DNA of 64,000 bases, taken from the NCBI RefSeq assembly GCF_000422865.1, contig NZ_AUGW01000017.1:1-64000 (forward strand), in the 5' to 3' direction. The translations under genes were made by a program, and so were the position numbers. Under the pieces are notes generated by a model. The model ran no database searches. It saw only the letters and a list, made by a program, of their open reading frames with translations, and was not told the origin of the DNA. This DNA is from Oceanospirillum maris DSM 6286. GTDB lineage: Bacteria > Pseudomonadota > Gammaproteobacteria > Pseudomonadales > Halomonadaceae. Shown piece by piece: positions 22,848 through 61,097 of the stretch (its first letter is position 1; every line of letters starts with the position of its first letter).

Positions 22848-22850
22848 CAA

Positions 22851-40654: not shown

Positions 40655-40655
40655 T

Positions 40656-41747: not shown

Positions 41748-44312
41748 GTGTCCAGCGAGAAGCATACCCCCATGATGGTGCAGTACTTTAGCATCAAAAA
41801 AGATCACCCCAATGAGCTTGTCTTTTACCGTATGGGGGATTTTTACGAGCTATTTTTCGAGGATGCAAAAAAAGCGGCCAACTTGCTGGATATTACGTTA
41901 ACCGCCCGTGGAAAAACCGGCGGGCAGCCGATTCCAATGGCAGGTATTCCTTACCATGCAGCGGAAAACTATCTCGCACGGTTGGTACGTAACGGGCACT
42001 CTGTCGCCATCTGTGAGCAGGTGGGTGATCCTGCAACCAGTAAAGGGCCGGTTGAGCGTAAAGTAGTACGGGTTCTAACGCCGGGAACCGTGAGCGATGA
42101 AGCCCTTCTGGATGAACGCAAAGATAACCTTTTAGTGGCGCTAACCCGCCGCGGTGAACGGTTTGGCCTCTCAACACTGGATGTTTCTAGCGGTCGCTTT
42201 ACCGTACAGGAGCTGACTAACGATGCGGCGCTATTGGCTGAAATTCAGCGCCTAAGCCCCGCTGAGCTACTGATTGATGAAGGGGAATTATTTGACTCAG
42301 CTATTAGCCAGCGCAAAGGCGTTCGACAGATATCACCCTGGCAATTTGACACCGAAAGCGCGACCACCCAGCTGTGTCGTCAATTTGAAACCCGTGATTT
42401 AGCAGGCTTTGGTTGCCAACAACTGGAAGTGGCGATTGGGGCAGCCGGTGCTTTGCTGGAGTACGTACGCGATACTCAACGTACTGGTTTACCCCATGTA
42501 CGGGCGCTGCAAACAGAATCCAGCGATGAGTGTATTCAGATTGATGCGGCCAGCCGTCGTAATCTTGAAATTGATATCAATATCAGTGGAGGCACGGAAA
42601 ACACTCTCGCATCGGTTATGGATAACACCGCTACAGCGATGGGTAGCCGTCAGCTTCGCCGCTGGTTAAACCGTCCTATTCGTTGTCGAGATCAGCTACA
42701 TCTGCGTCAATCTTGTGTGCAGGCGATCCAGAACAGCTTTCAATGGCAGGGCATTTACGACCATCTCAAGGCGATTGGTGATATTGAGCGCATTCTAGCC
42801 CGAGTCGCCCTAAGAAGTGCCCGCCCCCGAGATCTGGCTCGCCTACGTGATGCCCTACAAGAACTGCCGGAATTTACAAATCTGCTGGCGGATATTAAAG
42901 AATCCGCACTGGATCACCTTCGCACAACGATTATTAACTTCCCGACCGAAGCCGACTTACTCCGCCGTGCCATCATTGATAACCCACCCGTTGTCATACG
43001 TGATGGCGGTGTCATAGCTGATGGTTTTGATGAAGAACTGGATGAGCTACGTCAGCTGAGTGAACATGCCGGTGATTTTCTGATCAAGCTAGAAGAACAG
43101 GAACGCGCCACAACCGGCTTATCAACCTTAAAAGTCGGTTACAACCGAGTTCATGGCTACTATATAGAAATCAGCCGAGCTCAGTCTGATCAAGCGCCAG
43201 CACACTATATTCGTCGTCAAACCTTGAAGAATGCAGAGCGCTTTATCACACCAGAACTCAAAGAGTTTGAAGATAAAGTTCTCAGCAGTAAGTCCCGTGC
43301 GTTAACCCGAGAAAAAGCATTATATGAACAGGTCATTGAGCAACTGAACGACAACCTAATGGGACTGCAGAATTTGGCAATATCTCTATCGGAACTGGAT
43401 GCGCTTAACACCTTTGCGGAACGGGCTGAAACACTCGACTTCTCCCGCCCAACACTTATTCGAGATAGCGGCATTTTTATCGAAGGTGGCCGCCATCCTG
43501 TGGTCGAGCAAGTTTCTGATCAGCCTTTTGTGCCTAATGATTTAATCTTTTCTAACGACAGCCGGATGGCAGTTATTACCGGCCCGAATATGGGGGGTAA
43601 ATCGACCTATATGCGGCAAATCGCCTTAATCGTACTGCTGGCTCATACCGGAAGCTATGTTCCTGCTAAGTCCGCCAAAATCGGCCCTATTGATCATATT
43701 TTCACCCGTATTGGTTCTTCAGATGACCTTGCCAGTGGCCGCTCGACCTTTATGGTTGAAATGACGGAAACAGCCAATATTCTGAATAATGCAACACCTT
43801 GCTCATTGGTTTTAATGGATGAAATTGGCCGAGGCACCAGCACCTTTGATGGCTTATCTCTCGCTTGGGCCTGCGCTGCACATTTGGCAAGACAGCTTAA
43901 AGCTTACACCCTATTTGCGACCCACTACTTTGAACTTACCGCGCTACCGGAGCAGTTTGACGGTGTTGTGAACCTGCACCTAAATGCGACCGAGCATAAC
44001 GACAATATTATCTTTATGCACAAAGTACAGGAAGGCCCTGCCAGTCAAAGTTATGGTTTACAGGTCGCAAAATTAGCAGGGATTCCACCGAATGTGGTGG
44101 GTGAAGCAAAAGAAAAATTACTGCAACTGGAACAGCAAGACAGCCATTCACCGATATCACCTCAACGAGCTTACTCCCCCGTGCAGAACGATCTATTCTC
44201 TGTCGCGGAGCCAGACCCAGCCCTTGAAAGGCTAGAAGGAATTAGCCCTGATGATTTAACGCCTAAACAAGCCCTTGAACTGCTCTATGAACTAAAAGCT
44301 TTGATTAAATAG
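41748..44312 (+). CDS. mutS: DNA mismatch repair protein MutS
   Basis: 854 residues from a GTG at 41748, which has an AGGA site and puts [12 protein letters not shown] at the usual position; an ATG at 41721 adds nine residues. The mismatch-binding motif [11 protein letters not shown] is present (Phe and Glu that contact the mispair). The ATPase has [24 protein letters not shown] and [14 protein letters not shown]. It recognises mismatches and recruits MutL. It ends in an 8-bp convergent overlap with the soluble chemoreceptor gene. Confidence 0.97.
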
Positions 44313-46203
44313 GGCGCTTATCCCTTAGGCTATCGACTATTTTAGGCGTGATTTTAAACTGAGCACAATGTTGGTCATAACGGACTTTAAGTTCAGGTTC
44401 TCCGATAAGGTTACCAAGTTCATCTTGGTAGCCCGCTTTTCCTTGTACTGGTTGCCCCTGCCAACGTTGTTCAACTTTATTACGTTCAGGCTGAGTGTTA
44501 AACCAGCGTATAAAGCGATTGGCCTGAGCCAATAATCGGTACCCTGAAGCAGAGCCTGATACCGCCATCGTGTAATAGAAAGGTTGCAGCTCAACATGTC
44601 CTGGGAGAATTTCTATCTTGTCATACCAAGGGCTACTGGAGCTTTTACACGCCCAATAATAGATCGGTAAATCAACACCAAAAGCATCAACCACCCCATC
44701 GGCTAAACAGTTATGAATTCGAGATTGATCTGAGTATGCAATCAAGTTACCCAACATAACCTTGCCGCCAAGTTTATTAGCATTAGCACTCCAGCGCAAG
44801 CCATTATCCTCCAATACCTGTAGGGCGGCAGGGTCATTAATAACACCTAATACTTTGCCTTCCAGATCCTGAATCGTTTTAATCCGATTATCACCTTTAC
44901 GTCTTGCCAGCACCCAGTGTAAATAGATGTAAGCATCGGAATACGCCACATTGCCGTATTCCTCCGAAGGCGGCAAAGCGCTGATTACAATATCCGCAGG
45001 CGGAGCCCCAAAAGTTTTACCTGCGACCAACAGCTCCGTGCACATATCCCAAGGAGCTTCGATAAATTCACAGGTTACGCCAAGATAACGGGCGAAAGCT
45101 TGGGCATAATCAACATCTAAACCTTTTAAAGGTTCACCTAACCGTTCTCGAAAGGATAGGCCGACAAAGTTAGGCTCCAGCGCTACTCTTAAAGTCCCTC
45201 GCTGTAAAATATCATCTAACTGATCATGGCTAGGATCTGGTACTAAGTGTAGCTTTTGGCTTATTCGATCAAAGGCCGTCACGGCTTGATCAATCTGACC
45301 ACTGATCAGATCAATTTTTTTGAGTCCCTCACTCATATCCTTAGCGACACTGCTAATATGTTGGCTTTTATTGTTGATTCGGTTCATCGCGCCGGAGCTT
45401 AGTTTTAACGTTTCAAAAATAACGCCGGTGTTATCCATGATAGCGCTGAGCTGCTGCTCTATAGACTGGAATAAAGTTGTTAACTGCCCCGTAGAACTTT
45501 GTATCGTATTCACAAGTTCGGAAAGCCTATCCATGTTACTGGTTCGGACATTGCTAAGCTCGGTATTTACGGCAGAAAAATCAAGCTGATCAGCGGCCTG
45601 TTGAGCTTGCTCCATAGTCACCGCTGCTAAACGACGGACTTCATCCGCAACAACCGCAAAACCACGCCCATGTTCTCCTGCTCTGGCGGCTTCTATTGAA
45701 GCATTCAAGGCTAGTAAATTAATTCCCTTGCCAATATCCTGAATACCATTGAGTACGGTTGTGACATTTTTAGACTTCTCATCCAAAGCGGTAGAGATCT
45801 GGCCTAGCGCCCCATTCAACGTATCATTGACCTGATTCACCTCTCGGTCCATCAGCTCCTGCATTGAGCCAACCGTTGTGTTGGAACTGTTAAGGTATTC
45901 TTTAGCATGATTTAGCTCATCATCCAGCTTATTAGCTCGATGACTCACCTCTGACAGAAAATTATCCTGGGCCTCCAAAGCCCTAAACATCTGCAAAGAT
46001 AGTAAAGAGGTATGCTCACTAACCAACTGCACCGCTCGGTAAAAGCGTTTATTTTTTGGAGAGCTGAGCGCTTCATTAGTGCTAAGGTCGCCTTCTCGCA
46101 GGGCGCTTGATGCCGTATCTAAAGAAGAAGAGGAGGTCGTACTAGATATGGAAGTATCCTCTCGCGAGAAAGATTTAAATACAGATCCGAGCCTACTTTT
46201 CAT
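44305..46203 (-). CDS. Soluble chemoreceptor with C-terminal family 3 solute-binding domain
   Basis: 632 residues with no signal peptide and no membrane helix. A Ser-rich N-terminus leads to a methyl-accepting signalling hairpin (about 80-320) with tip [20 protein letters not shown]...[10 protein letters not shown]. The C-terminal part (about 335-600) is a family 3 periplasmic solute-binding fold ([45 protein letters not shown]). A binding domain of this kind is normally outside the cytoplasm; here it would be inside and behind the signalling tip. It probably senses a cytoplasmic small molecule such as an amino acid. The adjacent methylamine genes hint at an N-methyl or amino-acid ligand, but this is inference. 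Confidence 0.85.
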
Positions 46204-46593
46204 TTTTATATCCTATAAACAGCATTCCAATCCCTGTCAGCAAGTAACAAGGGCTATTACTTAGGACAACGCAATAGCTATGCCAGACTTATCCTCTGTC
46301 TTAATAATGTGGCTAAAATAACAAAGTCACAGCCTAAAACGTCAAGCTCAAATATCCATGCCAAAAAAGCGCATACAAATATGTCACTCGATGCACTAAA
46401 AATGAGCACAACCTAAGCCATTCTTGTATTTCTAATCTGAGGTAAAAATAGGAATAACAGTGGGGAAATATAGAAATAGCAGAGGGAAATAATAGCTTGA
46501 GTTAACAGAATGAAGCGGCTCGCCTTTACATCGAGCCGCCTTATTATCAGTACTGTCGTTATCGATACTGTTGATGAGATAACTTAAACAAGA
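46204..46593. other. Intergenic region with stem-loop after the mgd operon
   Basis: 390 bp without a gene. GCGGCTCG (46515-46522) pairs with CGAGCCGC (46532-46539); it may end the mgd transcript, though the T-run on the minus strand is poor. The rest should contain the promoter of the soluble chemoreceptor. Confidence 0.45.
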
Positions 46594-47292
46594 TCAGATC
46601 AGACATGCCGTACCACATAGCCCACCTTGATACTCGGTGAGCGCATCCAGCAATATTCCAAGCATGTATTCGCCAGCAGTAGCATCACTTAGCAGCATAA
46701 AACACGGCACACCCTCTACCTGGTGACGAACAACAATACAGCTTGTTCTGGCTACCGACGTTTGAGCAATATGGCCCACAGGAAAAGCGTCTTCACGCAA
46801 GTTTACAGCACACAGTTTAGCCATAACGTTTGCGATATGTTCTCCGGTCAAGACAAAGCAGGCGTGGCTGTCTTCACAGAAAAGGGGATAACAGCTCGCT
46901 GGCGTTTGCGTATGCTGACGCGGTAATTCCATTACCGAGCGACCAAGGTCTTTTAAGCTACCCAGCACCCAAAATTCGGTAAGGCTCAAGCGTAGCACAA
47001 GCTCACCGTCTGGGCTTATAGCAGCTCGATTCGGCTTATTAGGCACGGCAATACCTTGAGAGGAAAGAAATGATTCAACCCCTTTCCCTCGGTAGCCAAC
47101 TCGCGGCAATAAACTTAGATCAATTAATCCGGCGGATTTGACTCGCGAATCATCGTTAGCATCAACCACCTGAATCATACGTCCACCCATTGCTGAATGG
47201 GTGAAATCTAAGCCAGAAACCGTGCGGTAGTGGCAGCTCCGTACTGGTTCTAAATCGGATGAAACGTATTGTGACTGTCTTAGTGATTCCAT
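46594..47292 (-). CDS. mgdD: N-methylglutamate dehydrogenase delta subunit / sarcosine oxidase gamma-like
   Basis: 232 residues from the ATG at 47292, which has a perfect AGGAGG 6 nt upstream overlapping the end of the previous gene. It resembles SoxG, a small GcvT-like subunit (DLSLLPRVGYRGKGVESFL, SLTEFWVLGS). It is the last gene of the operon. It would form a heterotetramer with the three upstream products. SoxG and MgdD cannot be told apart by sequence alone; the context favours MgdD. Confidence 0.7.
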   Translation of the reverse strand: MESLRQSQYVSSDLEPVRSCHYRTVSGLDFTHSAMGGRMIQVVDANDDSRVKSAGLIDLSLLPRVGYRGKGVESFLSSQGIAVPNKPNRAAISPDGELVLRLSLTEFWVLGSLKDLGRSVMELPRQHTQTPASCYPLFCEDSHACFVLTGEHIANVMAKLCAVNLREDAFPVGHIAQTSVARTSCIVVRHQVEGVPCFMLLSDATAGEYMLGILLDALTEYQGGLCGTACLI

Positions 47293-47293
47293 A

Positions 47294-50200
47294 CTAAGCC
47301 TCCTGCCGTGTTTGTTCTTTGTCATAAAATGGCAAACTTACAACGCTAGCCATCACCACCGAACCACCATCAACGCGAATAGGAAACTGGCCGCCTTCTT
47401 CAGATTGTTCGATACCCACGTAGGCCATACCAATAATGGCATTAGCAGTGGGAGAGTATTCGCAGGATGTCACATTCCCTGTAATGGATGAATCAGACCC
47501 TGTATCTGACAACACAATATGGCCCTCTTCTGGTTTCTGATTTTGGACAAGATATTCAGCGGATAAACGAAAGCCCACAAGCTTACGGGTCTGGGGCCGC
47601 TTCATCACAATATCCACCGCCCGACACCCGTTGAAATAAGGTTTTTTCTTGCTTACAGCCCAGCCAAGAGAGACTTCACTAGGATGGCTCATACCATCGG
47701 TATCTTGGCCTATAATGATATGACCTTTTTCCAAACGAAGAAGACGCTGGGTTTCAACACCGAAGGGTTTGATATCAAATGGCTGACCTGCGGCCATCAG
47801 AATATCCCAAAGTACCTCGCCATAGCGGGATGGTACATGAAGCTCATAGCCTAGCTCTCCAACAAAACCAACTCGTAAGAATCGAGCAGGGATCTTGTGT
47901 TCACAACCCGGCACATTCAGAAAACCTTCTCGGCAAGCTAGATAAGGAAAGCCTTCTCGACTTAAATCCAAATCCGTTAGTCCTTCCAGAACCTTGCGAC
48001 TATCAGGCCCCGCCAGATTCACGGCGGCATAAGCTGAACTGACGTTAGTAATATCCACATCCAGTTGCCACTGAGTATTCCAGAAGGTCATCAATCGATA
48101 GACATTATCCACACCGGTTGTTGTCGCTGTCACATAGAAGTGATCTTCGTCAAACCGGCAGGCCACGCCATCATCAATCACAACACCTTGTTCATTGGTT
48201 AGAACCGCATAACGTGTTTTTCCCACCGGCTGTTTGAGAAAGCCAAAGGTATAAATACGATTCATAAGCTCTGCGGCATCCGGCCCCCGTAGTTCAATGC
48301 CCCCTAGCGTAGAGACATCAATCAACCCTACCTTAGTACGCACATGCAAGGACTCATTCTCGATACAAGCATTTCGAATGTTTCGGGCTTGAAGTAACAA
48401 AGGGCTGGCAGCACTTCCCGTAAGCCGTTGTCCTTCCTTTGGATAAAAAGCAGGCCGCATCCAAAGTCCAGCGGGAATCATTTTCGCACCAAGCTCTAGA
48501 TGGCGATAATGCATGGATGTTAACCGGTAAGGATCAAACCCACGGCCAGCCATATAAGCTAGTTTTTCGGGCGTTAATGGTGGTCTTGCAGTGGTAACAC
48601 CGGTTTCAGAAACGGTTCTCTGAGTCGCTTTAGCAACAAGCCGTGCCGTTGGCAATGCCGAATGCCGACCCTGCGACGGCCCCATTCCAACAGTAGAAAA
48701 GCGCTTCACAAGCTGTATATCGCGATAGCCCATTCGGGTAGCATTGACAATATCTTTGACCTGAAGATCTTCATCAAAATCGACAAAGTCTTTACCTTTT
48801 GGATGCTTAAAGATAGGCCAGTGGAAATTGACTTTTTGATCACAGAAAACATCTGGAACCGCTTCATCGCTAAGCTCAAGCGCGTTTAATGCCTCAATAG
48901 CAGCCCGTTCACCATCCTTCATCACCGCAGACAAACGATGAATACCGTTTACCGAGCCTGCAATATAAAGATTATCCGGCAGGTTTCTAAGTGAAAAAGC
49001 GGCTCTTTGATCATCATAAGAAAGTTGGCCACCCGCTTGGCATATCAATTGGTAAGCGGGCATATAGCCAGCGGACATACACAGCAGATCACAGGGAATA
49101 GTCTCTAACGAGGCAGAAACTTCACCGGGAGAAGTAATCGCCCTCACCTCAATGAACTCTAAGCGCTGCGAACCTTTTGCTTCATAAACCGTTTGCCCAA
49201 AACGTACCTGAACACCTTTTTGATGAAGCTGATCAACCAGATTTTTCTCCGTATGAGATAGCTCCGACGCCTGTCGCATATCAATAACCGCACACAGTTG
49301 AATCCCTTGACGGTTGAGCATCAACGCCGTCAGATAACCATCTTCATTGCCGGTCAGTACAGCGGCCCGTTCTCCTGGTTTAACCGCATACAGTTTCATC
49401 AAACGCATCACAGCACTGGAGAAGATAACGCCCGGAATATCATTACCCCGAAAAACCACATGCTGCTCATAGGCACCTGTGACCATAATGCACTGCTTGG
49501 CTCTTACTTTATAAAGGCGCTTTCCTTGTAGTACTGGTAACCAGTTATCGGTAAACCATGCATTACAAACCGCCTCGGTCATTACAGTAATATTGGCGTG
49601 CTGGCGAACCTTGGCCATCAATTCCTGACGTAGCTGTTCAGGGTTATTACAATCACTAAACTCAGAATAAGCTAAGGAGCCACCTAAAAGAGTATGCTCT
49701 TCCAATAGCAAGACATCTGCACCGGCATCCGCTGCTTTGAGAGCAGCCATCATACCCGCAGGGCCAGAACCGACCACCACAAGATCGTGATGCAAAAAAG
49801 CTTTATCGTAATATTCAGGCTTAAATTTAAGATCAGCAATGCCAAGCCCTGCTTTCACTCGTATCTGCTTCTCCCACCAGTCCCAGACACCTTTTGGCTT
49901 ATAAAAAGCGCGATAATAAAAGCCAACAGGCATAAATCGCCCAAAGTGGTTTAAGACAGCATCTTTGTCTTTTTTTACACTGCCGTTTACATTCTGACCG
50001 GTCACGTCTAGGCCATCAATTGCAGGTACACGATCAGCTAAAGCATTAGGTTCATTCGGTAGCTGTACAAGACTGTTAGCATCATGCCCTGCCAAGGTTA
50101 GAGGCCCTCGAGGACGATGATACTTAAAAGAGCGAGACCAAACCCATTGTTGATTAGCCAATAAAGCACTACCTAGCGTATCCCCTTTAATTCCAGTGAT

Positions 50201-50302
50201 GCGCTCGCCTTCAAATATAAACTCAACGGTTTTCTGACGCTCTAGCATCAGCCCCATAGGTTCTGGTAGACGATCCCTAAAAACAGGTGCAGGGTTATTC
50301 AC
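47294..50302 (-). CDS. mgdC: N-methylglutamate dehydrogenase large subunit / sarcosine oxidase alpha-like
   Basis: 1002 residues. The N-terminal part (about 25-110) is a ferredoxin-like domain without an obvious Fe-S cysteine set (GDTLGSALLANQQ). A dinucleotide-binding disulfide-reductase-like domain has DLVVVGSGPAGMMAALKAADAG at about 173. The C-terminal half is GcvT-like (GLIDVSTLGGIELRGPDA, LGYELHVPS), the folate-binding part that receives the methyl carbon. It oxidises the N-methyl group and passes the C1 unit to tetrahydrofolate. It overlaps mgdB by 4 bp. Confidence 0.78.
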   Translation of the reverse strand: MNNPAPVFRDRLPEPMGLMLERQKTVEFIFEGERITGIKGDTLGSALLANQQWVWSRSFKYHRPRGPLTLAGHDANSLVQLPNEPNALADRVPAIDGLDVTGQNVNGSVKKDKDAVLNHFGRFMPVGFYYRAFYKPKGVWDWWEKQIRVKAGLGIADLKFKPEYYDKAFLHHDLVVVGSGPAGMMAALKAADAGADVLLLEEHTLLGGSLAYSEFSDCNNPEQLRQELMAKVRQHANITVMTEAVCNAWFTDNWLPVLQGKRLYKVRAKQCIMVTGAYEQHVVFRGNDIPGVIFSSAVMRLMKLYAVKPGERAAVLTGNEDGYLTALMLNRQGIQLCAVIDMRQASELSHTEKNLVDQLHQKGVQVRFGQTVYEAKGSQRLEFIEVRAITSPGEVSASLETIPCDLLCMSAGYMPAYQLICQAGGQLSYDDQRAAFSLRNLPDNLYIAGSVNGIHRLSAVMKDGERAAIEALNALELSDEAVPDVFCDQKVNFHWPIFKHPKGKDFVDFDEDLQVKDIVNATRMGYRDIQLVKRFSTVGMGPSQGRHSALPTARLVAKATQRTVSETGVTTARPPLTPEKLAYMAGRGFDPYRLTSMHYRHLELGAKMIPAGLWMRPAFYPKEGQRLTGSAASPLLLQARNIRNACIENESLHVRTKVGLIDVSTLGGIELRGPDAAELMNRIYTFGFLKQPVGKTRYAVLTNEQGVVIDDGVACRFDEDHFYVTATTTGVDNVYRLMTFWNTQWQLDVDITNVSSAYAAVNLAGPDSRKVLEGLTDLDLSREGFPYLACREGFLNVPGCEHKIPARFLRVGFVGELGYELHVPSRYGEVLWDILMAAGQPFDIKPFGVETQRLLRLEKGHIIIGQDTDGMSHPSEVSLGWAVSKKKPYFNGCRAVDIVMKRPQTRKLVGFRLSAEYLVQNQKPEEGHIVLSDTGSDSSITGNVTSCEYSPTANAIIGMAYVGIEQSEEGGQFPIRVDGGSVVMASVVSLPFYDKEQTRQEA

Positions 50303-50631
50303 GGTGCAACCTCCTCTGTTTTACGCTCAACACCAAACATTTTACGATCAACATCAAGCATGGCCGTTCGGATGTCCGCTGCTAATTCACTTGGATCATA
50401 GGTCTTGATAATCTGATCTGTTGTGCGATCACGCTCTGCCACAAACCAGTAACCTGATGCACTGTGGAACCACCACTCACGCACAACACCCGTACCGTTG
50501 TAGCTATAAAATGTATGCTCTGCCCACGCCTGATCCGGTGCTTGTAAATCCGGCAACGGCGTAACTTCGCCACCAAAAACAAATTCATTAATATTTCTTG
50601 GCCCATTTAGAGGGCAAGTCATAACCTTCAT
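50299..50631 (-). CDS. mgdB: N-methylglutamate dehydrogenase small subunit / sarcosine oxidase delta-like
   Basis: 110 residues with the SoxD pattern: TCPLNGPRNINEFVFGGE, then FYSYNGTGVVREWWFHSASGYWFVAERD. SoxD-type subunits bind zinc near the N-terminus. GGGGA precedes the ATG. It overlaps mgdC by 4 bp. Confidence 0.78.
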   Translation of the reverse strand: MKVMTCPLNGPRNINEFVFGGEVTPLPDLQAPDQAWAEHTFYSYNGTGVVREWWFHSASGYWFVAERDRTTDQIIKTYDPSELAADIRTAMLDVDRKMFGVERKTEEVAP

Positions 50632-50692
50632 AATTCATCCCCGATATCGAGTATCATTAGCCCACGCTTAGCAACGGGGCAGTTCCTTTCAA

Positions 50693-51949
50693 TCAGTGTG
50701 AGGCCGCGGTAGCACCCATTTCATTGACTTGCCTAAAATCGTTAAATCGTTCGGCACCAAAGGGTTTTATCAACGAAGGTGTTTTACCTGTCGCCACCAG
50801 TTCCGCCATCGTCTTTCCACAGATCGGTGTCGCTTTAAAGCCCCACGTTCCCCAGCCCGCATCAAGGTAATAGTTCTGAACAGGGCTCTCGCCCATAATC
50901 GGGCTGTAGTCTGAGGTCATATCTGTCAATCCTGTCCATTGACGCATCAATTTCAAATTAGCCATAAATGGAAATAACTCAACGGCATGGGCTAATAACT
51001 CTTCTTTTAGCTCAAGGGTTGATCGGCTGTTATAAAGCGGATACGGATCAGAACCGCCACCAAAAACCAGCTCACCTCGCCCTGTTTGCTGAACATAGCA
51101 ATGGAAAGCAGGGGAGCTAACTAAAGGATCAAGAAAAGGTTTAACAGGTTGCGTCACCATGGCTTGTAATGGGTAGGTTGTAATGGGCAGGCGAAAACCG
51201 GCTTTCTCGGCTAATAATGAGCTATGCCCTGCCACCGCTTGCACGACAACACCGCATTCGATGATGTGATCGACACTACCTTGCTTCGCTTTTACTGCGG
51301 TTACTTTGCCATTCTCGACGACAACATCAGTCACTTCAGTAAGCTGATGTAGCTCAACGCCGCGCTGAGTGGCACCTTTTGCATATCCCCAAGCTACGGC
51401 ATCATGTCGCGCTGTCGCACCATCCATATGCCATAAACCCGCAAGCACAGGTTGATGGCCGGGATTCATATTCAGCGTAGGCACCAGCTCTTTAATTTCT
51501 TTAGGCCCGATTAACTCGGTCTTACCACCAAAATGTTTATTCACTTCTGTACGCTGGCGAAAGCCTCGAATAGCCGCATCCGTATGCGCCAACGTCAATT
51601 GCCCCCGCTTGGAATACATAATATTGAAGTCAAATTCATTCGACAGATTTTGGAACAGCTTCACCGACTCGCTGTAAAACTTCACCCCATCAGATGTCAG
51701 GTAGTTTGAACGAATCACGGCTGTGTTGCGGGCTGTATTGCCACCACCCAAATAACCTTTTTCCAATACAGCAACATTGGTAATACCGTGGTATTTTGCT
51801 AAATAATAAGCCGTGGCCACCCCGTGCCCTCCACCGCCAATAATCACGACGTCATAGCGTTTCTTTAGGGAGACTGGTGGGGGTAAGTCAGCGTCTTTCT
51901 CAAAGGGAAAGTCACCGTTAAGACCGTATTTAAGAAGTGCAAAGGGCAT
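50693..51949 (-). CDS. mgdA: N-methylglutamate dehydrogenase beta-type subunit / sarcosine oxidase beta-like
   Basis: 418 residues of the DAO/SoxB type. The FAD-binding motif is VVIIGGGGHGVATAYYL (about 34-50), followed by YLGGGNTARNTAVIRSNYL, the segment that holds the covalent FMN histidine in SoxB. Here Asn/Arg occupy that place and I see no clear His. It oxidises the secondary amine. First of the four dehydrogenase genes, 103 bp after folD. Confidence 0.78.
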   Translation of the reverse strand: MPFALLKYGLNGDFPFEKDADLPPPVSLKKRYDVVIIGGGGHGVATAYYLAKYHGITNVAVLEKGYLGGGNTARNTAVIRSNYLTSDGVKFYSESVKLFQNLSNEFDFNIMYSKRGQLTLAHTDAAIRGFRQRTEVNKHFGGKTELIGPKEIKELVPTLNMNPGHQPVLAGLWHMDGATARHDAVAWGYAKGATQRGVELHQLTEVTDVVVENGKVTAVKAKQGSVDHIIECGVVVQAVAGHSSLLAEKAGFRLPITTYPLQAMVTQPVKPFLDPLVSSPAFHCYVQQTGRGELVFGGGSDPYPLYNSRSTLELKEELLAHAVELFPFMANLKLMRQWTGLTDMTSDYSPIMGESPVQNYYLDAGWGTWGFKATPICGKTMAELVATGKTPSLIKPFGAERFNDFRQVNEMGATAASH

Positions 51950-52051
51950 AAACCTTCTCCTGTATCATCAGGTCTACTGATGCAGTATGTTTCATCTGGC
52001 AGCTGACGGGCCGCCAATCTCTGAGTTTTTCTGTCTGGCTAGGATGCTTCC

Positions 52052-52909
52052 CTAGTGCTGCTGCCGAGCAGCGATCAGCGTATTTCTCATCAGACAGGCA
52101 ATCGTCATTGGCCCAACACCACCAGGTACAGGCGTAATAGCGTTAACCAGAGGCTCAACTTCCGCATAATTCACATCACCTACCAACTTACGCTTACCTT
52201 CACGCTCAATCACATTGATACCAACATCAATAACCGTGCAGCCGGGTTTAACCCAATCTTTACCGATCATTTCTGGGGAGCCTACAGCCGCAACAAGAAT
52301 ATCGGCCTGCTGACTGAGTTGTTTGGGATTGGTCGTACGAGAGTGAATAACCGTAACAGTGCAGTTTGCCTTGAGTAGCAGGGATGCCATTGGCTTACCA
52401 ACAATATTAGAGCGACCCACAACAACCGCATGTTTGCCCGAAAGATCACCAAGCGTCTTTTCCAGCATAATCATGCAGCCTTGAGGTGTGCAGGGAACTA
52501 ATGACTTTTTACCAAGACTTAGAGCACCGACATTGACTGGATGAAAACCATCCACATCTTTCTCTGGAGCAATAGCGGCAATCAGTTTCTCTTCGTCCAG
52601 ATGATCAGGTAGAGGAAGCTGTACCAAAATGCCGTGAACATCCGGTGCATTATTTAGCTTTTCAATTAGAAGATTGAGTGTTTGCTCAGAGGTATCTTCA
52701 GGGAGGCGATACTCAATAGAATTCAGTCCAGACTCCGTGGCTCGGGCGGTCTTATTGCGCACATAAACCTGACTTGCGGGATCCTCGCCAACCAGTACAA
52801 CGGCCAATCCTGGCTTAATACCAAACTGCTGATAAAATTCAGCAGCATCTTTTTTGACCTCTTCAAGCACCTGAGAGGAGATCACTTTCCCATCAATTCG
52901 CGTGGACAT
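52052..52909 (-). CDS. folD: Methylene-THF dehydrogenase / methenyl-THF cyclohydrolase
   Basis: 285 residues, full length for FolD. It contains [24 protein letters not shown] with the catalytic lysine, [11 protein letters not shown] and the NADP-site segment [16 protein letters not shown]. It turns methylene-tetrahydrofolate into 10-formyl-tetrahydrofolate. Its place between purU and the mgd genes indicates that it processes the C1 unit released from N-methylglutamate. AGGAGA precedes the ATG. Confidence 0.95.
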
Positions 52910-52917
52910 GCTCTCTC

Positions 52918-53784
52918 CTATTTAAAGATAACGGTTTTATTTCCATCAACAAAAACACGGTGTTCAGAATGTAGTTTTGCCGCTCGAGCTAGCGCAACGG
53001 TCTCAGTATCACGGCCCGCTATTGTTAGTTTTTCTGGCCCCATAGTGTGGTCAACACTCTGAACAGACTGTTCAATAATAGGCCCTTCATCTAGATCAGC
53101 GGTTACATAATGAGCAGTAGCACCAATTAGCTTTACGCCTCGGTCATAGGCTTGATAGTAAGGTCGAGCACCTTTAAAGCCTGGAAGGAATGAGTGGTGA
53201 ATATTAATTGCCCGCCCTGCCAGTTGAGCGCAAAGCGCATCGGATAAAATCTGCATATAGCGGGCAAGAATAACCAACTCCGTTTCAGTTTCATTCACAA
53301 TATCCAGCAAGGCTTTTTCCTGCTGAGATTTGTTTTCTTTATTAACCGGAAGATGTACAAAACGAATACCTTCTCGCTCTGCCATGTGTCGCAAATCTTG
53401 ATGGTTAGATACAACGGCAGTAATCTCAATATTCAGATCCCCCTTGTTCTTGCGATACAGTAAATCGCTTAAACAATGATCAGCCTTGGAAACCATAATG
53501 ATGGTTTTTATCGGTGCGCAGGCATTATGAAAACTCCACTGCATATCAAAACGCTGTGCGACCTCTGCAAAGCCTTCTCGAATATGGTCGGCTTTATCTT
53601 CACCCTGAAAGTGGAAACGAGTACGCATAAAGAATTTGCCACTATCTTCATCATCAAACTGAGCTTGCTCACTAAGATAGCAACCCTGCTTTGTCAGATA
53701 GCCAGCAACATCCGCGACAATGCCGCTTCCGGCTGGACACATGGTTTGAAGAATATATTCGGTTCTGTTCGTTGCATGAGGCAT
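52918..53784 (-). CDS. purU: Formyltetrahydrofolate deformylase
   Basis: 288 residues from the ATG at 53784 (AGGA site); a longer frame to 53832 is unlikely. An N-terminal ACT domain (about 5-85, [17 protein letters not shown]) is followed by the formyltransferase-like fold with the conserved [16 protein letters not shown]. It hydrolyses 10-formyl-THF to formate and THF, recycling folate during methylamine use. It is 8 bp from folD. Confidence 0.95.
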
Positions 53785-53957
53785 TTTCAAAATCCTGTCA
53801 CTTTTTTCAGGGTGCAAAAAACCGCAAAGCATTACGCTTTGAATTAAAATCTACGTTGGGATATTAGACTCGAATAGGAGCTATCCAATCAGCTCCTATC
53901 CTTTTGCTATTTTTCCATTAGCTATCTGCTTGATATTGATATCTAAGGCCTGTCAGA

Positions 53958-55292
53958 TTAATACGACTGACTCGGAATCCAGCTGGTTCCTGCAAGGGGG
54001 ACACGTGCCATTGCTGCAGCCTCTACATTCAGTGCCACCAGATCTTCCGGCTCTAAATTACGCAGATCATTCTTACCACAGGCCCGCGCTAACGTTTGCG
54101 CCTCCATGGTGAGTACACGCAGATAATTAGCTAAACGATGGCCCGCTTCAACGGGATCAAGACGTTTACTCAACTCAGGGTCTTGGGTCGAGATACCAGC
54201 AGGGTCTTTACCTTCATGATAGTCATCGTAATAACCGGCAGCGGAACCGATTTTCTTAAACTCTTCATCCCATTTTGGATGGTTACAACCCAGAGCGATC
54301 AATGCCGCCGTACCAATAGCAACCGCATCGGCACCTAGCGCCATCGCTTTCGCTACATCAGCACCGTTACGAATACCGCCGGAAACAATTAACTGAACCT
54401 TACGATGCATCCCCATTTCTTGCAGGGCTTGAACCGCCTGTGGAATAGCCGCCATGGTAGGAATGCCAACGTGTTCAATAAACACTTCTTGAGTCGCTGC
54501 GGTACCGCCTTGCATACCATCAACTACAATCACATCCGCCCCAGCTTTAACGGCCAGTTTAACGTCGTAGTAGGTACGGGTTGCCCCTACTTTGATGTAG
54601 ATAGGCACCTGCCAGTCGGTAATTTCACGCAGTTCTTGGATTTTAATCGCTAGGTCATCAGGGCCAGTCCAGTCAGGATGACGACAGGCGGAACGCTGAT
54701 CTACACCCATCGGTAGGGTTCTCATTTTAGCGACACGATCTGTGATTTTCTGCCCCAGCAACATACCGCCGCCGCCCGGTTTGGCACCTTGGCCAAGTAC
54801 CACTTCAATCGCATCCGCTTTGCGCAGATCATCAGGGTTCATACCGTAACGGGACGGCAGGTACTGATAAACAAGTTTGGTCGACTGCCCACGTTCTTCT
54901 GGTGTCATACCACCATCACCAGTGGTAGTCGATGTACCCACTGCAGAAGCACCGCGGCCTAACGCTTCTTTTGCGTTAGCAGACAATGCACCAAAGCTCA
55001 TGCCGGCAATAGTTACGGGAGTTTCAATAACAATCGGCTTCTTCGCAAAGCGAGTACCTAAGGTGACTTGGGTGTTGCACTTTTCACGATAACCTTCCAG
55101 CGGGTAGCGCGACATGGATGCCCCAAGGAATAACAGATCATCAAAGTGAGGCACTTTACGCTTGGCACCAAATCCGCGAATGTCGTAGATACCGGTTTCG
55201 GCAGCTCGGCGGATTTCAGTCATGGTGGCTGCATCAAATGTCGCAGACTCACGCAGGCCCGTTTTTACATTCAGATCGTTTGAATCACTCAT
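53958..55292 (-). CDS. mgsC: N-methylglutamate synthase subunit C (FMN glutamate-synthase-like)
   Basis: 444 residues equal to the FMN-binding, glutamate-synthase core (GltB central domain): MSFGALSANAKEALGRGASA, KPGGGGMLLG, IYIKVGATRTYYDVKLAVKAGAD and LIVSGGIRNGADVAKAMALGAD. The three-cysteine 3Fe-4S loop of GltB is absent; one Cys remains (ALGCNHPKWDEE), as in MgsC/GlxD proteins. With MgsA and MgsB it transfers the methylamino group of gamma-glutamylmethylamide to 2-oxoglutarate, giving N-methylglutamate and glutamate. Confidence 0.85.
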   Translation of the reverse strand: MSDSNDLNVKTGLRESATFDAATMTEIRRAAETGIYDIRGFGAKRKVPHFDDLLFLGASMSRYPLEGYREKCNTQVTLGTRFAKKPIVIETPVTIAGMSFGALSANAKEALGRGASAVGTSTTTGDGGMTPEERGQSTKLVYQYLPSRYGMNPDDLRKADAIEVVLGQGAKPGGGGMLLGQKITDRVAKMRTLPMGVDQRSACRHPDWTGPDDLAIKIQELREITDWQVPIYIKVGATRTYYDVKLAVKAGADVIVVDGMQGGTAATQEVFIEHVGIPTMAAIPQAVQALQEMGMHRKVQLIVSGGIRNGADVAKAMALGADAVAIGTAALIALGCNHPKWDEEFKKIGSAAGYYDDYHEGKDPAGISTQDPELSKRLDPVEAGHRLANYLRVLTMEAQTLARACGKNDLRNLEPEDLVALNVEAAAMARVPLAGTSWIPSQSY

Positions 55293-55319
55293 CTCAATAT
55301 CTCCAAACTGCGTGATTAA

Positions 55320-56003
55320 TTAGTAAGCGGAAGCATTATCAACTTTAAAATTGTATAGCTGACGAGCAGAACCATAGCGCTTAAAGTCCTTTGGATCTTC
55401 GTCAACGCCTGCACGGTTAAGCAGATCCGTTAAATATTCCAGATGTTCTTGTCGCATCTCTTTTTCGATACAGTCGGCACCTAAAGAAGACACGCTACCT
55501 TTAACAAAAATTTGGGTCTCATAAAGAGAATCCCCTAAAGCATCACCAGCATCACCGCACACAACCAATGCACCTGCCTGCCCCATAAAGCAACTCATGT
55601 GGCCAACATTGCCACCAACCACAATTTCAACACCCTTCATGGAGATACCACAGCGAGCGCCAGCATCACCTTCAATAACCAGTAAACCACCGTGAGCTGT
55701 AGCCCCCGCAGACTGAGACGCTTGCCCTTTTACCCGCACGGTGCCGGACATCATATTTTCCGCTACACCTTGACCAGCATTACCATGTACGACGACATGG
55801 GCTTTCTTATTCATACCAGCACAGTAGTAGCCCGCATGACCTTCAATATCGACACTCAGTGACTGGTCTAAGCCGCAGGCAATATTATGGTTGCCTTTGG
55901 CACCCGTAATTTTCCATTCACGCTCTGTGCATTCGCTACTTTGTTCATGCAACGCCTGATTGATGTCGCGTAGCGAGGTAGTAGTCAGATCAAATGTTTT
56001 CAT
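55320..56003 (-). CDS. mgsB: N-methylglutamate synthase subunit B (GXGXG domain)
   Basis: 227 residues dominated by the right-handed beta-helix GXGXG repeats of the glutamate synthase C-terminal domain (GHAGYYCAGMNKKAHVVVHG, GNAGQGVAENM, GHMSCFMGQAGALVVCGDAG). It is a stand-alone structural subunit, as in MgsB/GlxC. It lies 27 bp upstream of mgsC. Confidence 0.85.
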   Translation of the reverse strand: MKTFDLTTTSLRDINQALHEQSSECTEREWKITGAKGNHNIACGLDQSLSVDIEGHAGYYCAGMNKKAHVVVHGNAGQGVAENMMSGTVRVKGQASQSAGATAHGGLLVIEGDAGARCGISMKGVEIVVGGNVGHMSCFMGQAGALVVCGDAGDALGDSLYETQIFVKGSVSSLGADCIEKEMRQEHLEYLTDLLNRAGVDEDPKDFKRYGSARQLYNFKVDNASAY

Positions 56004-56036
56004 AAAGATGATTCCTCGTCGTTAATTCGCCTGCGC

Positions 56037-56933
56037 TCAGGTGCGTTCCCAAACATAAATTTTAGCCGCTTCTGGCTCCCATACTCGGGCATTTTCAATA
56101 CCGGGTAATGTCGTCAGCGCCTGATACTCTGAGGCCATTGCCACATAGTCATCTGTCTCTGCCAACACCGCAGGTTTACAAGCGATAGGGTCACGTACAA
56201 CGGCAAAACCATCACGGGTACCAATAGTAAACGTGAAGAAGCCATCTAGGTCTTTCAGGGCATTTTCTAGGGCTTGCTTTAAGGTGTCGCCTTCTTGCAG
56301 GCGATGCATCAGATAACCGGCTGCTACTTCGGAGTCATTGTCGGTTTCAAAGTGAATGCCTTGACGCTTCAACTCCAAGCGTAAGCGGTTGTGGTTAGAT
56401 AGCGAACCGTTATGGACTAAGCAAAGATCTTCACCGGTAGAAAATGGGTGTGAACCGGCCATGGTGACAGCTGATTCCGTCGCCATTCGTGTGTGACCTA
56501 TGATGTGTGTGCCCTTCATACCTTTAAGGTTAAAGTTATTGGCAATAATTTCAGGCAGACCTACTTCTTTTAGAATTTCGATGGAATGACCGGCACTTAA
56601 GATCAAAACATCCGATGCATGAGCTTCAATAAAGGCGGTAGCCCTTGGCGCATCACAGTGCATTTTGAAAACGGCTACGGTGGCATTCTGGAACCAGACC
56701 ACTTCGGCATTCAACTCTGCTCTGGCTAATTCAGCCAATGCTTCCCAGTTATAATTTTCATCTTCATGGCGCAAAGTCAGCTTAGTGCCGTCAACTACTT
56801 CATCACCGTAGATTGCAAAGCCTGCGCTGTCAGGGCCTCGATCCGTCATGGCAATCAACATGGGTTCAAACAAGGCACCCAATTCGCTCTCAAGAGCAGG
56901 GTTTTTCAGGTAGAGACCTACGATTCCACACAT
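56037..56933 (-). CDS. mgsA: N-methylglutamate synthase subunit A (class II amidotransferase)
   Basis: 298 residues. The catalytic Cys2 directly follows Met (MCGIVGLYLK), followed by DRGPDSAGFAIY, HTRMATESAV and LVHNGSLSNHNRLR, the Ntn-hydrolase glutaminase pattern. In this pathway it would cleave gamma-glutamylmethylamide and channel methylamine. It lies 33 bp upstream of mgsB and 140 bp after gmaS. Confidence 0.87.
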   Translation of the reverse strand: MCGIVGLYLKNPALESELGALFEPMLIAMTDRGPDSAGFAIYGDEVVDGTKLTLRHEDENYNWEALAELARAELNAEVVWFQNATVAVFKMHCDAPRATAFIEAHASDVLILSAGHSIEILKEVGLPEIIANNFNLKGMKGTHIIGHTRMATESAVTMAGSHPFSTGEDLCLVHNGSLSNHNRLRLELKRQGIHFETDNDSEVAAGYLMHRLQEGDTLKQALENALKDLDGFFTFTIGTRDGFAVVRDPIACKPAVLAETDDYVAMASEYQALTTLPGIENARVWEPEAAKIYVWERT

Positions 56934-57073
56934 CGCATCATCCTCATTATCAAAACAGATAGTTAGACAAAACAGGTTTAGAGAAATGACAGAGTTAAAT
57001 AAACGGTTCGCTAGGCTTAGGCTGCGCCATTTATAAAAAGTACTCTAAACATGTTTTAAAAAGTAAAATCGGA

Positions 57074-58405
57074 TTAGAAAAATTCGCCGTAACGGGCCAC
57101 TTCCCAGTCACTCACATGTCGGCAGTAATCAATCCATTCATCGCGTTTAAGCTTGATAAACTCCGCCATCAACCCTTCGCCAATAGCGTCAGTCAGTACG
57201 GTATCCGCTTCTAATGCATCCACCGCTTCGCCCAAAGTCTGTGGCAAAATCTCGATACCTTTAGCCGCTCGATCTTCTGCACTCATGGTGTAAAGGTTTG
57301 CGTTGACTGGATCACCGGCTTCCAACTCACGCTCAATGCCATCCATACCAGCGGCAATCAAGGCAGCGTGAACAAGATATGGATTACAAGCCGAATCAGG
57401 CAAACGGAATTCCAACCGCCCATATGGCACACGTACCATGGCGGAGCGGTTGTTATCGCCGTAACAAATATAGGCCGGTGCCCACGTTGCGCCAGACGCT
57501 GAGCCACCAACCACTAATCGTTTGTAAGAGTTCACCGTTGGCGCAGAGATAGCGCATAACGCTTTAGCGTGATGTAGCAAACCTGCAGTGAAGTGATAGG
57601 CCATCTTCGACAGCCCCATACCATGTTTGTCGCTGTCATCACCAAATAGGTTTTTGCCACTTTCATCGCAAATAGATAGATGAAAGTGCATACCGTTACC
57701 GGTGCGATCTGATGCAGGCTTAGGCATAAAGGAGCACACAAAGCCAAGATCATTAGCGATCTCACCAGCGGCCATACGGACAAAGGTAAAGCGGTCAGCA
57801 GAGGTTAAAGCATCACTATAGGTGTAATTGATTTCAAACTGGCCGTTAGCATCTTCATGATCAATTTGGTAAACATCCATGCCAACTTGTTGCAAGCTAT
57901 CGACCAACGTTTCTAGAAACTCACGGGATCGGGATAATCCTTTGTAGTCATAGCAAGGTTTTGTCAGCGTATCCGTGTCATCGGCAGGGTCTAGAGAGCC
58001 ATCACTGTTTCGTTTAAACAGTGAAAACTCAGGTTCAAGCCCTGTATTTAACGTCCAGCCTCGGCTGCTTAAACGTTTTAGCTGTTCCTTCAGCGCAACA
58101 CGACTGTCATAAGCGTACGGTTTACCATCAACATAACCGTCACACACAATCCGCGCATAACCAGGCTGCCACGGCACAATGCTTACACTGCTGAGATCAC
58201 CTCTGGCAAGAAAATCTGGCCCGTGCGGTTCCATACCTAAACCCCACACGGCGAAACCAGCAAAGCCTGCGCCTTTTTCAACAACATCCATCAAGCAATG
58301 AGCAGGCACAGATTTAGTTTTGGCAACACCATGAATATCTACAAATTGTGCGAGCACATATTTGATGTCATTTTCGTCACAGAAACGCGTTACATCTAAA
58401 GGCAT
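57074..58405 (-). CDS. gmaS: Gamma-glutamylmethylamide synthetase (glutamine synthetase family)
   Basis: 443 residues of the glutamine synthetase fold. It has EPEFSLF and [13 protein letters not shown] (metal-binding Glu), GNGMHFHLS, and [14 protein letters not shown] with the ATP/glutamate segment, then GRLEFRLPD. It would join methylamine and glutamate using ATP. The alternative is a GlnT-type glutamine synthetase; context with mgsABC and mgdABCD on one strand favours GmaS. It is the first gene of the operon and has a consensus sigma-54 promoter 85 bp upstream. Confidence 0.82.
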
Positions 58406-58456
58406 CAGCTAACTCCTAAATAGTTTAGGTCACTTACTTTTCCCACTAGGCTTTAA

Positions 58457-58595
58457 TTTCCCACAAGGAATATTTATTTATCTATAAGAAAGCAACCGCC
58501 GTGCCACTATTTTTCCTTACAGGAATATTTTATTCCTAATATTCTTAACTTATTGATTTGAAAGGGTAAGAAAATATATTTCTTGCGAGGAATAT
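58457..58595. promoter_or_regulatory. Three copies of a 17-bp operator-like motif TTTCY-N4-AGGAATAT
   Basis: TTTCCCACAAGGAATAT (58457-58473), TTTCCTTACAGGAATAT (58512-58528) and TTTCTTGCGAGGAATAT (58579-58595) share identical spacing and orientation. The core TTCC...GGAA is palindromic. They lie between gmaS and the divergent XRE-cupin gene, on both sides of the gmaS sigma-54 promoter. A fourth copy lies before glnK. They are candidate binding sites for the XRE-cupin protein or another local regulator. Confidence 0.65.
58491..58506 (-). promoter_or_regulatory. Sigma-54 promoter of gmaS operon
   Basis: On the minus strand TGGCACGGCGGTTGCT fits the sigma-54 consensus TGGCAC-R-N4-TTGCW at every fixed position. 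It is 85 bp upstream of the gmaS ATG, so transcription should begin near 58480. It implies control by an NtrC-type activator and nitrogen status. Confidence 0.85.
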
Positions 58596-58672
58596 AGATT
58601 CGAAGAAGTAAGGCGTATAATTTGCCCTCCGTTACCACCAGAAAAACCGACATCATGTACGGACGGGGTATA

Positions 58673-58711
58673 AATACAGTGCAGGTATAGTACGAATACA
58701 GTGCAGATATA
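58673..58711 (+). repeat. Direct repeat AATACAGTGCAGRTATA upstream of the regulator gene
   Basis: Two copies at 58673-58689 and 58695-58711 differ at one base and start 22 bp apart, about two helical turns. They lie just upstream of the XRE-cupin start and could be an autoregulatory site. Confidence 0.65.
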
Positions 58712-58751
58712 CATCGATATAGCCTGCCACGCTTTAAAATGGAGCATGCAA

Positions 58752-59342
58752 ATGGATCAGAACCACACAGAAAAATTCAGCTTAGACCAATACATTGGCA
58801 TGGTGGTCAAGAAAGCCAGAGTTGACCAAGGGCTAAAGATTACTGATGTCGCCCGTATTTCAAATATCAGTCAAGGCATGATCAGTAAAATCGAGAATGC
58901 ACAAGTTTCAACGAGCCTAGAAACACTGAATAAACTCTGCAATGCCATTGGCTTATCCATTTCTACACTCTTTACTGATTACGACCGGCCTGAAGGTAGT
59001 GCACAATTCACTAAAGCAGGCGGAGGCCTTGAAGTTGTTCGCCGGGGAACTGACAAAGGCCATAATTATCAGCTACTGACCTATCAGCGCGGGGGTAAAA
59101 AGAACTTTGAGGCATTTCTCATCACGATGGATGATCTGGCAGAGGTTTTTCCAACCTTCTCCCACCCAGGTCAAGAATTTGTCTATCTATTATCGGGCCA
59201 CCTTCTTTATCGCCACGGCAACCATCTATATGAGATGAAAGCGGGTGACAGCTTGACCTTTGATGCCGAGGTTCCCCATGGCCCAGAGCAGCTTTATGAT
59301 GTGCCGTTACAGCTATTGTCTATTATTAACTACTCTGAATAA
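58752..59342 (+). CDS. XRE-family regulator with C-terminal cupin domain
   Basis: 196 residues from the ATG at 58752 (GGAG at 7 nt). The N-terminal HTH_3 domain (about 8-75) has KITDVARISNISQGMISKIENA. The C-terminal cupin_2 domain (about 110-190) has FSHPGQEFVYLLSGHLLYRHG and AGDSLTFDAEVPHGPE, with His and Glu ligand candidates. The class usually binds amine or amino-acid-derived ligands. Divergent transcription from gmaS indicates control of the methylamine operon. Confidence 0.88.
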   Translation: MDQNHTEKFSLDQYIGMVVKKARVDQGLKITDVARISNISQGMISKIENAQVSTSLETLNKLCNAIGLSISTLFTDYDRPEGSAQFTKAGGGLEVVRRGTDKGHNYQLLTYQRGGKKNFEAFLITMDDLAEVFPTFSHPGQEFVYLLSGHLLYRHGNHLYEMKAGDSLTFDAEVPHGPEQLYDVPLQLLSIINYSE

Positions 59343-59373
59343 AAAAAGCGCTTACCTAGGAACCGGTAAGCGC
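59341..59373 (-). terminator. Terminator after amtB
   Basis: On the minus strand GCGCTTACC (59373-59365) pairs with GGTAAGCGC (59356-59348) and ends in a seven-T run. It abuts the stop codon of the convergent regulator gene. Confidence 0.85.
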
Positions 59374-59461
59374 AATGGGGGTAAAGGCTGTATAGAGGGT
59401 AAAGCTCGATAAAAAGTAGATAGAAAGATAAAAAGTAAAATAAATCGTTTAAGACAAATGA

Positions 59462-60715
59462 TTATTTGTCATTAGTGAACTCCGGATAAGCAGTCATGCC
59501 ACATTCATGCACATCCATACCTTCCATCTCTTCTTCTTCACTTGCACGTAAACCAACAACGGCTTTAATAATCGACAAAACAACAAAGGTTGCGCCGAAC
59601 ATCCATGCAAAGACCACAACAGTGCCTATCAACTGATTCATAAAGGTTGCATCAGGATTACTGATCAAGACTGCAAAGATCCCCCAAATACCAGCTGAAC
59701 CATGTACCGAAATAGCGCCAACAGGGTCATCCAGCTTCAGTTTGTCCAGCAGCAATACAGACCCCACAACAATCAGGCCACCAACAGCACCAATTAAAGT
59801 TGCCATCGCAGGAGACGGCATTAACGGTTCTGCTGTAATCGCAACCAAACCGGCCAAAGCACCATTAATGGTCATGGTGAGATCCGTCTTACCAAATAAG
59901 AAGCGAGCGAGTAATGCTGCTGCAACCATACCCGCAGCGGCAGCGGCGTTAGTGTTAACAAAAACTTTAGCGACAGCATTAGCTTCATCAATATTCGCGA
60001 TTTTTAGTTCAGAGCCACCATTAAAGCCAAACCAGCCCATCCATAGGATAAACATACCCAGTGTAGCCATCGGTAAATTAGCACCAGGAATCGCTATTGG
60101 CTTACCATTTTTCCCATAGCGGCCTTTACGTGGACCTACCAAAATAACGGCAGCCAGTGCAGCTGAAGCACCCGCCATATGAACAACAACAGAACCTGCA
60201 AAATCTTGAAAGCCCATTTGGTCTAAGAAACCACCGCCCCATTTCCAATAACCTTCTACTGGGTAGATAACCGACACCATTACAATGGCGAAAATTAAGA
60301 AAGGCCATAGGCGCATCCGCTCAGCAACAGCACCCGATACAATCGACATTGTTGCTGCAGCAAATACCGCTTGGAAAATGAAGTCCGACATTGTCGAGTA
60401 GTAAGGTGCGCCCTCTTCTCCAGAAAGCACATCCGCAGCGGTATTGTCTGCACCCAAGAAGAAATCGATTCCTGGAATAACTGACGACATAGGGTTAGCA
60501 GGGTACATCACGTTGTAACCAACAATTAGATAAACAATGCAGGCGATACCATATAACAAAGCATTCTTGTTGAGGATCTCAACCGTGTTCTTACTTCTTA
60601 CTAAACCCGCTTCAAGCATGGCAAAACCAGCCGCCATCCACATCACTAAAGCTGCGCTTATTAAGAAATAAAACGTATCGAGGGCATAACCTACTTCAAT
60701 GACTAAATTATCCAT
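59462..60715 (-). CDS. amtB: Ammonium/methylammonium transporter
   Basis: 417 residues with about eleven membrane helices. Amt hallmarks are the pore-lining twin histidines in VVHMAGASAALAA and SVHGSAGIWGIFA, and the motif GFAMLEAGLVRSKN. It conducts ammonium, and proteins of this family also carry methylammonium, which fits the neighbouring pathway. It follows glnK by 14 bp; GlnK binds and closes the channel. Confidence 0.95.
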   Translation of the reverse strand: MDNLVIEVGYALDTFYFLISAALVMWMAAGFAMLEAGLVRSKNTVEILNKNALLYGIACIVYLIVGYNVMYPANPMSSVIPGIDFFLGADNTAADVLSGEEGAPYYSTMSDFIFQAVFAAATMSIVSGAVAERMRLWPFLIFAIVMVSVIYPVEGYWKWGGGFLDQMGFQDFAGSVVVHMAGASAALAAVILVGPRKGRYGKNGKPIAIPGANLPMATLGMFILWMGWFGFNGGSELKIANIDEANAVAKVFVNTNAAAAAGMVAAALLARFLFGKTDLTMTINGALAGLVAITAEPLMPSPAMATLIGAVGGLIVVGSVLLLDKLKLDDPVGAISVHGSAGIWGIFAVLISNPDATFMNQLIGTVVVFAWMFGATFVVLSIIKAVVGLRASEEEEMEGMDVHECGMTAYPEFTNDK

Positions 60716-60729
60716 ATCTTGCTCCTATC

Positions 60730-61068: not shown

Positions 61069-61097
61069 AAAAACCCCTTTCTCTATAAGAAAAATTA

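Follow-up and report, generated by a model that had tools for sequence, protein, structure and literature searches.

The window, the whole 64,000-nucleotide stretch of Oceanospirillum maris DSM 6286 DNA that was analysed, encodes a chemoreceptor that carries a family 3 solute-binding domain behind its signalling hairpin. The receptor is one of a conserved family with constant domain order in Gamma- and Alphaproteobacteria. On balance we lean towards the view that it is a cytoplasmic chemoreceptor which informs CheA about an amine belonging to the methylated-amine pathway. The parts of the protein and the surrounding genes are listed in Table 1.

Table 1. Features of the chemoreceptor and of the island in which its gene lies.
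Feature	Position	Strand	Content and basis
Chemoreceptor, predicted cytoplasmic, 632 aa	44305..46203	-	MCP hairpin, then C-terminal SBP_bac_3-like domain; window ORF reading, Pfam, model
MCP signalling hairpin, residues 49-295	45319..46059	-	Pfam PF00015, model helices
Conserved hairpin tip, residues 151-195	45619-45753	-	Tip identity to relatives
Solute-binding fold, residues 328-620	44344..45222	-	Pfam PF00497, model, fold matches, residue mapping
Island of ~17.1 kb between mutS and fdxA	44313..61425	.	Receptor, methylamine genes, amtB-like and glnK-like genes
Sarcosine oxidase-like / N-methylglutamate dehydrogenase-type genes	46594..51949 (46594-47325, 47294-50302, 50693-51949)	-	ORFs
folD-like	52052-52909	-	ORF; name from reading the translation
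purU-like	52918-53832	-	ORF; name from reading the translation
mgsC, mgsB, mgsA-like (N-methylglutamate synthase type)	53958..56933	-	ORFs
gmaS-like gamma-glutamylmethylamide synthetase	57074..58405	-	TIGR03105, 674 bits, cut-off 469.6
HTH-cupin regulator of the island	58701..59342	+	Pfam HTH_3, Cupin_2
amtB-like	59462-60715		Name from reading
glnK-like	60730-61278		Name from reading

The protein matched the Pfam families MCPsignal (PF00015; 92 bits over residues 126-286, cut-off 34.6) and SBP_bac_3 (PF00497; 46 bits over residues 338-583, cut-off 26.4). It has the signalling hairpin with conserved tip that characterizes an MCP, and both the profile match and the fold of an SBP_bac_3 domain. 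An N-terminus that is not hydrophobic and the fusion behind an MCP part set it apart from the periplasmic binding proteins of ABC transporters. A methylation-site pattern had no match in the receptor. The highest 19-residue Kyte-Doolittle mean was 1.16, compared to 2.2 for the membrane MCP encoded at 39152-40675, and within residues 1-60 the peak was 0.12. The 18 relatives in alignment A1 had maxima of 0.99-1.40, with L024, L025 and L031 entered without their first residues. Neither a membrane helix nor an export signal was found by hydropathy and inspection of the upstream reading frame, and on these grounds the receptor is predicted to be cytoplasmic. A periplasmic location due to an overlooked export signal was rejected in view of the low hydropathy and of an in-frame stop only 3 codons 5' of the ATG. 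The sequence-only reading had described a methyl-accepting hairpin and a C-terminal family 3 fold in one protein that lacks a signal peptide and membrane helix; Pfam, model and hydropathy agree with this. Its further proposal, that a normally periplasmic sensor is placed inside the cell behind the signalling domain, is borne out as far as the sequence can tell. Several members (the window protein, L029, L034, L037 and L049-L054) have a short hydrophobic-basic stretch at the N-terminus, the start codons of the relatives having been picked mechanically; such a stretch could serve to anchor the receptor at the membrane or at a pole.

A structure prediction, also proposed in that reading, was performed with AlphaFold2 using 19 sequences (mean pLDDT 73.7, pTM 0.63) and gave the hairpin followed by a C-terminal domain with the fold of amino-acid-binding proteins. 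The N-terminus was unreliable up to residue 47. Helices at 49-295 formed a long hairpin of moderate confidence (block pLDDT 60-78) and the alpha/beta domain, from residue ~328/331 to 620, was better predicted (block pLDDT 73-94). When the Foldseek matches were re-examined with VIA, the best solved match of this domain was 5eyf_A, a solute-binding protein with glutamate (Z 24.0, rmsd 2.6, 234 aligned); 3vv5, 5t0w and 3vvd were within 1 Z of it and are regarded as tied. The sensor domain matched 3mpk with a Z of 21.5 (rmsd 2.8, 230 aligned), and ancestral cyclohexadienyl dehydratases were among the top sequence and fold matches. In the model the descending hairpin helix is broken at residues 207-209, 30-odd residues past the tip (45574-45588, residues 206-210). 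The break coincides with an LDFS-like motif of which Asp208 is invariant in alignment A1.

A survey for the same architecture yielded 36 copies in 34 distinct genomes, since G182 and G1249 hold two copies each. The copies of G1249 are in tandem (L085 7762-11562) and those of G182 are L053 and L054; the presence of two receptors per genome suggests ligand diversification. In the genome of the window there were 54 MCP matches, one of which is the above-mentioned membrane MCP ~3.6 kb from the receptor, versus 1 match to the solute-binding half of the receptor at E ≤ 1e-10. An order-wide search with this half gave 13 hits in 12 of 390 genomes, all in open frames of 585-670 residues, and the class-wide search found 1 of 369 genomes, the genome of the window itself. 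The receptor was present in 2 of 119 Methylobacteriaceae genomes and, by a profile search, in 7 of 398 genomes of the phylum; it was absent from five congeners at the thresholds used. Scanning the contigs of named genomes, which reaches close relatives only, gave 25 loci, including 20 receptors in Methylophaga, Neptuniibacter, Amphritea, Nitrincola and Methylorubrum zatmanii. The other five (L044-L048) were plain SBPs without the MCP part and were left out. Two of the 20 named receptor genomes were G344 and G394 again and were counted once, and G825 (Methylobacteriaceae), G941, G1146 and G1249 were added from the wider searches, G956 sitting at the coordinates of G825. Alignment A1 consists of the window protein and 18 named receptor loci, L028 and L033 of the 20 having been left out, and in the copies compared the match to the window protein spans both hairpin and binding domain. 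Carriage on plasmids was rejected: tblastn against plasmids gave 182 records, of which 2 covered at least 80% of the query, and the best 20 of the 182 had 25.6-30.6% identity, the annotated ones being transporter binding proteins. PADLOC gave no match.

Conservation is distributed unevenly over the protein. The mean identity of 16 relatives to the window protein was 71% in the hairpin tip, 56% in the solute-binding core and 26-29% in the coiled coil. Among the 17 members, 20 of 45 tip positions and 50 of 266 core positions were invariant, the latter including the pocket Trp and Asp. With conservation in its core well above that of the coiled coil, the solute-binding domain is neither degenerate nor decaying.

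The island is bordered by mutS, which ends at 44312, and fdxA (61426-61761). In all five congeners fdxA directly follows mutS, which means that the site is empty there; the simplest reading is that the block was inserted as a whole in the lineage of the window. The ORFs starting at 47294 and 50693 matched the soxA and soxB subfamily models of NCBIfam below the cut-off, and no NCBIfam model matched the ORF at 46594; we take the three to be mgd genes. The NCBIfam label of the gmaS-like gene is type III glutamate-ammonia ligase, and its reading as gamma-glutamylmethylamide synthetase was taken from the context. Elsewhere in the window, an ORF at 21630-22850 that reads as glycosyltransferase-like contains a long glutamine run.

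Across genomes the receptor was found together with the methylamine pathway. In the 390 genomes of the order, all 12 receptor carriers were among the 24 genomes with gmaS (E ≤ 1e-150), with a Fisher p of 1.2e-16 that ignores shared ancestry, related genomes not being independent. At the genus level the 8 receptor genera were all among the 15 gmaS genera, out of 143 (Fisher p 1.8e-9, again ignoring ancestry), and carriers come from five different families within the order as well as from Methylophaga and Methylobacteriaceae. All 30 receptor genomes searched, a set without G941, G1146 and G1249, had a gmaS match at E ≤ 1e-100; in G798 and G807 it was matched as pieces, and in Methylorubrum the match had 45% identity with mgsABC adjoining it. 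The mgsC gene was matched at E ≤ 1e-230 in each of the 31 receptor genomes searched for it. At the thresholds used, none of the five congeners had gmaS or mgsC. A receptor without the pathway was never seen among the genomes tested for pathway genes. The receptor is not needed for the pathway, since it is missing from 12 of the 24 genomes of the order with gmaS; mgsC was found in 11 of these 12, and at least one MCP match in every one of them. In the Methylobacteriaceae, where 22 of the 119 genomes were included in the gmaS test, weak matches (42-45%, E ≤ 1e-80) occurred in both carriers and in 4 of 20 receptor-less genomes. Chance adjacency to the methylamine operon was rejected on the basis of the co-distribution and the empty site in congeners, and the methylamine link drawn by the sequence-only reading from gene location is thus much stronger than adjacency. 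The receptor of the window shares 63-66% identity with those of Methylophaga and 63% with Neptuniibacter, whereas its gmaS shares 65-66% with most Methylophaga (78% with M. muralis) and 81-82% with Neptuniibacter. Since the two kinships differ, strict co-inheritance as one unit is not claimed. Methylated amines occur throughout the sea, and gmaS serves as a marker for monomethylamine-consuming bacteria (PMC5520151, PMC7948447).

Gene neighborhoods in other genomes varied. In two Nitrincola loci the receptor lies between tmm-tdm (trimethylamine monooxygenase, TMAO demethylase) and an SMR-like gene with dmm (dimethylamine monooxygenase) genes. In G245 the receptor is flanked by dmm genes and, in the opposite direction, by tdm-tmm, each within 4 kb, and gmaS-mgsABC are located 15-20 kb away. 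The SMR-like gene (L041 8873-9199, L055 6092-6466), named from reading as a small transporter, adjoins the receptor in Nitrincola and is near it in G245; its product may move an amine. Methylamine genes were not found next to the receptor in Methylophaga, Amphritea, Neptuniibacter, Methylorubrum and the other loci read, and in 8 of 10 Methylophaga loci a glnK-like match occurs ~7 kb from it. In G112 the receptor directly precedes, on the same strand, cheA, cheW, an MCP gene, cheR, cheD, cheB and a response regulator gene, and these adjoining che genes support a role in chemotaxis. In L051 and L052 (genus g50) the receptor is directly 3' of putative genes that we presume to concern N-acetylglucosamine-6-phosphate.

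To compare the ligand pocket (E343, F346, W385, P411 and D511 by residue mapping), the 36 copies were aligned with E. coli ArgT and HisJ and two plain SBPs. In LAO the carboxyl of the ligand is bound by Arg77 and its amine by Ser72 and Asp161 (PMC4192606, PMC5740067). The position of Arg77 is a gap in all 36 copies, which also have Pro at that of Ser72 and no Thr at that of T121 (Ser in two); the Ser70 position is Ala in 35 copies and Thr in one. Asp161 and Asp30 are retained in every copy, the position of Asp11 is always Asp or Glu, and that of Phe52 always Trp. The placement of the gap varies, as a pairwise alignment to AncQR puts Tyr416 opposite the Arg, and by inspection, when the distance to Arg77 is counted off from either loop end, none of the 36 copies has Arg or Lys there. 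Seven of these, the window protein not among them, have a Lys or Arg elsewhere in the loop, which might stand in for the lost Arg. Because the Arg that holds the carboxylate is lost and the Asp that holds the amine is kept, the likeliest ligand would have an ammonium group and no carboxylate. The amino-acid-like ligand, such as N-methylglutamate, that the sequence-only reading had considered possible does not fit these replacements. That reading had also named loss of the ligand-binding residues as evidence against itself; such a loss was found with respect to amino acids, but the domain as a whole is not degenerate and its core is well conserved.

That the receptor would instead recognize a carboxylate-bearing intermediate (glutamate, N-methylglutamate or gamma-glutamylmethylamide), and act as a true metabolic-flux sensor, is unlikely. 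Any metabolite of the pathway would agree with the co-occurrence with gmaS and mgsC, and amino-acid-binding proteins have this fold, but the equivalents of R77, S72, S70 and T121 are lost throughout the family. It is only rather unlikely that the ligand is another cation or amine (ammonium, putrescine, choline or guanidinium) whose use merely goes along with methylamine use: the acidic D511 and E343 together with W385 suit many cations, and both the SMR-like gene of Nitrincola and G245 and the amtB- and glnK-like genes within the island agree with such a ligand, against which stands the presence of mgsC, a specific pathway marker, in every carrier tested. We regard it as very unlikely that the domain no longer binds a ligand and has become a protein-interaction or structural module or a cyclohexadienyl dehydratase-like enzyme. 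The loss of canonical ligand residues and the matches to ancestral cyclohexadienyl dehydratases point in that direction, and the invariant core positions, with the pocket Trp and Asp among them, argue against it.

The preferred reading, a chemoreceptor that reports a pathway amine to CheA, has difficulties of its own: the gmaS genomes that lack the receptor, the loci at which it does not adjoin methylamine genes, the weak gmaS matches in receptor-less Methylobacteriaceae, the Lys or Arg in the loop of seven copies, and OccJ and NocT, which have the same Glu/Trp pocket as the receptor yet bind opines (PMC5740067). Under the preferred reading an amine without a carboxylate would bind between the two lobes of the solute-binding domain, most likely mono-, di- or trimethylamine that enters by diffusion or through the Amt-like transporter of the island. 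Closure of the lobes would shift the hairpin and thereby change CheA activity, and cells would gather where the amine is taken in and consumed.

Cytoplasmic MCPs, SBP-type sensor domains and dCache amine chemoreceptors are already known. BvgS-type sensor kinases, whose family 3 (VFT) domains are periplasmic, also use an SBP fold as a fused sensor, the comparison to which the 3mpk match belongs; they differ from the receptor in being membrane kinases with the sensor in the periplasm. The periplasmic amino-acid-binding proteins of family 3 (LAO/ArgT, HisJ, OccJ, NocT) share the fold, Asp161, Asp30 and the acidic Asp11 position with the receptor, which unlike them has no export signal, is fused to an MCP and has lost the carboxylate anchor. 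Signalling proteins of both the cytosol and the membrane are known to have SBP-type Pfam domains in their sensor domains (PMC9602780). Cytoplasmic chemoreceptors such as Helicobacter TlpD (PMC13001251) are soluble MCPs without membrane helices like the receptor, which differs in sensing through a solute-binding fold and in the tie of its gene to a catabolic pathway. In the dCache_1AM receptors, some of them chemoreceptors, the sensor derives from an amino-acid sensor and some bind methyl-, dimethyl- or trimethylamine, according to a preprint (PMC10104139). The receptor would resemble these in having a sensor domain from an amino-acid-sensing ancestor and in its proposed binding of an amine. 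Theirs is a dCache fold that is mostly transmembrane, whereas the sensor described here is a predicted cytoplasmic SBP_bac_3 fold behind the hairpin, and none of the 18 families that Pfam matched at E ≤ 1 is a Cache family.

A cytoplasmic MCP with an SBP sensor tied to the methylamine pathway was not found in the open-access literature searched, which covers only a part of what has been published, and no chemoreceptor linked to the gmaS/N-methylglutamate pathway was among the matches listed there. We tentatively propose, with somewhat less assurance than for the amine reading itself, that this is a family of cytoplasmic chemoreceptors not described before, in which loss of the carboxylate anchor would have made a periplasmic amino-acid-binding fold into an internal sensor of methylated amines, and which could be gained in one block with methylamine pathway genes, food pathway and compass together. 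The family provides a concrete candidate chemoreceptor for the gmaS/N-methylglutamate pathway. It would show that a solute-binding fold can act as the internal sensor of a chemoreceptor, and 'metabolic' taxis toward a defined nutrient would become a testable binding problem.
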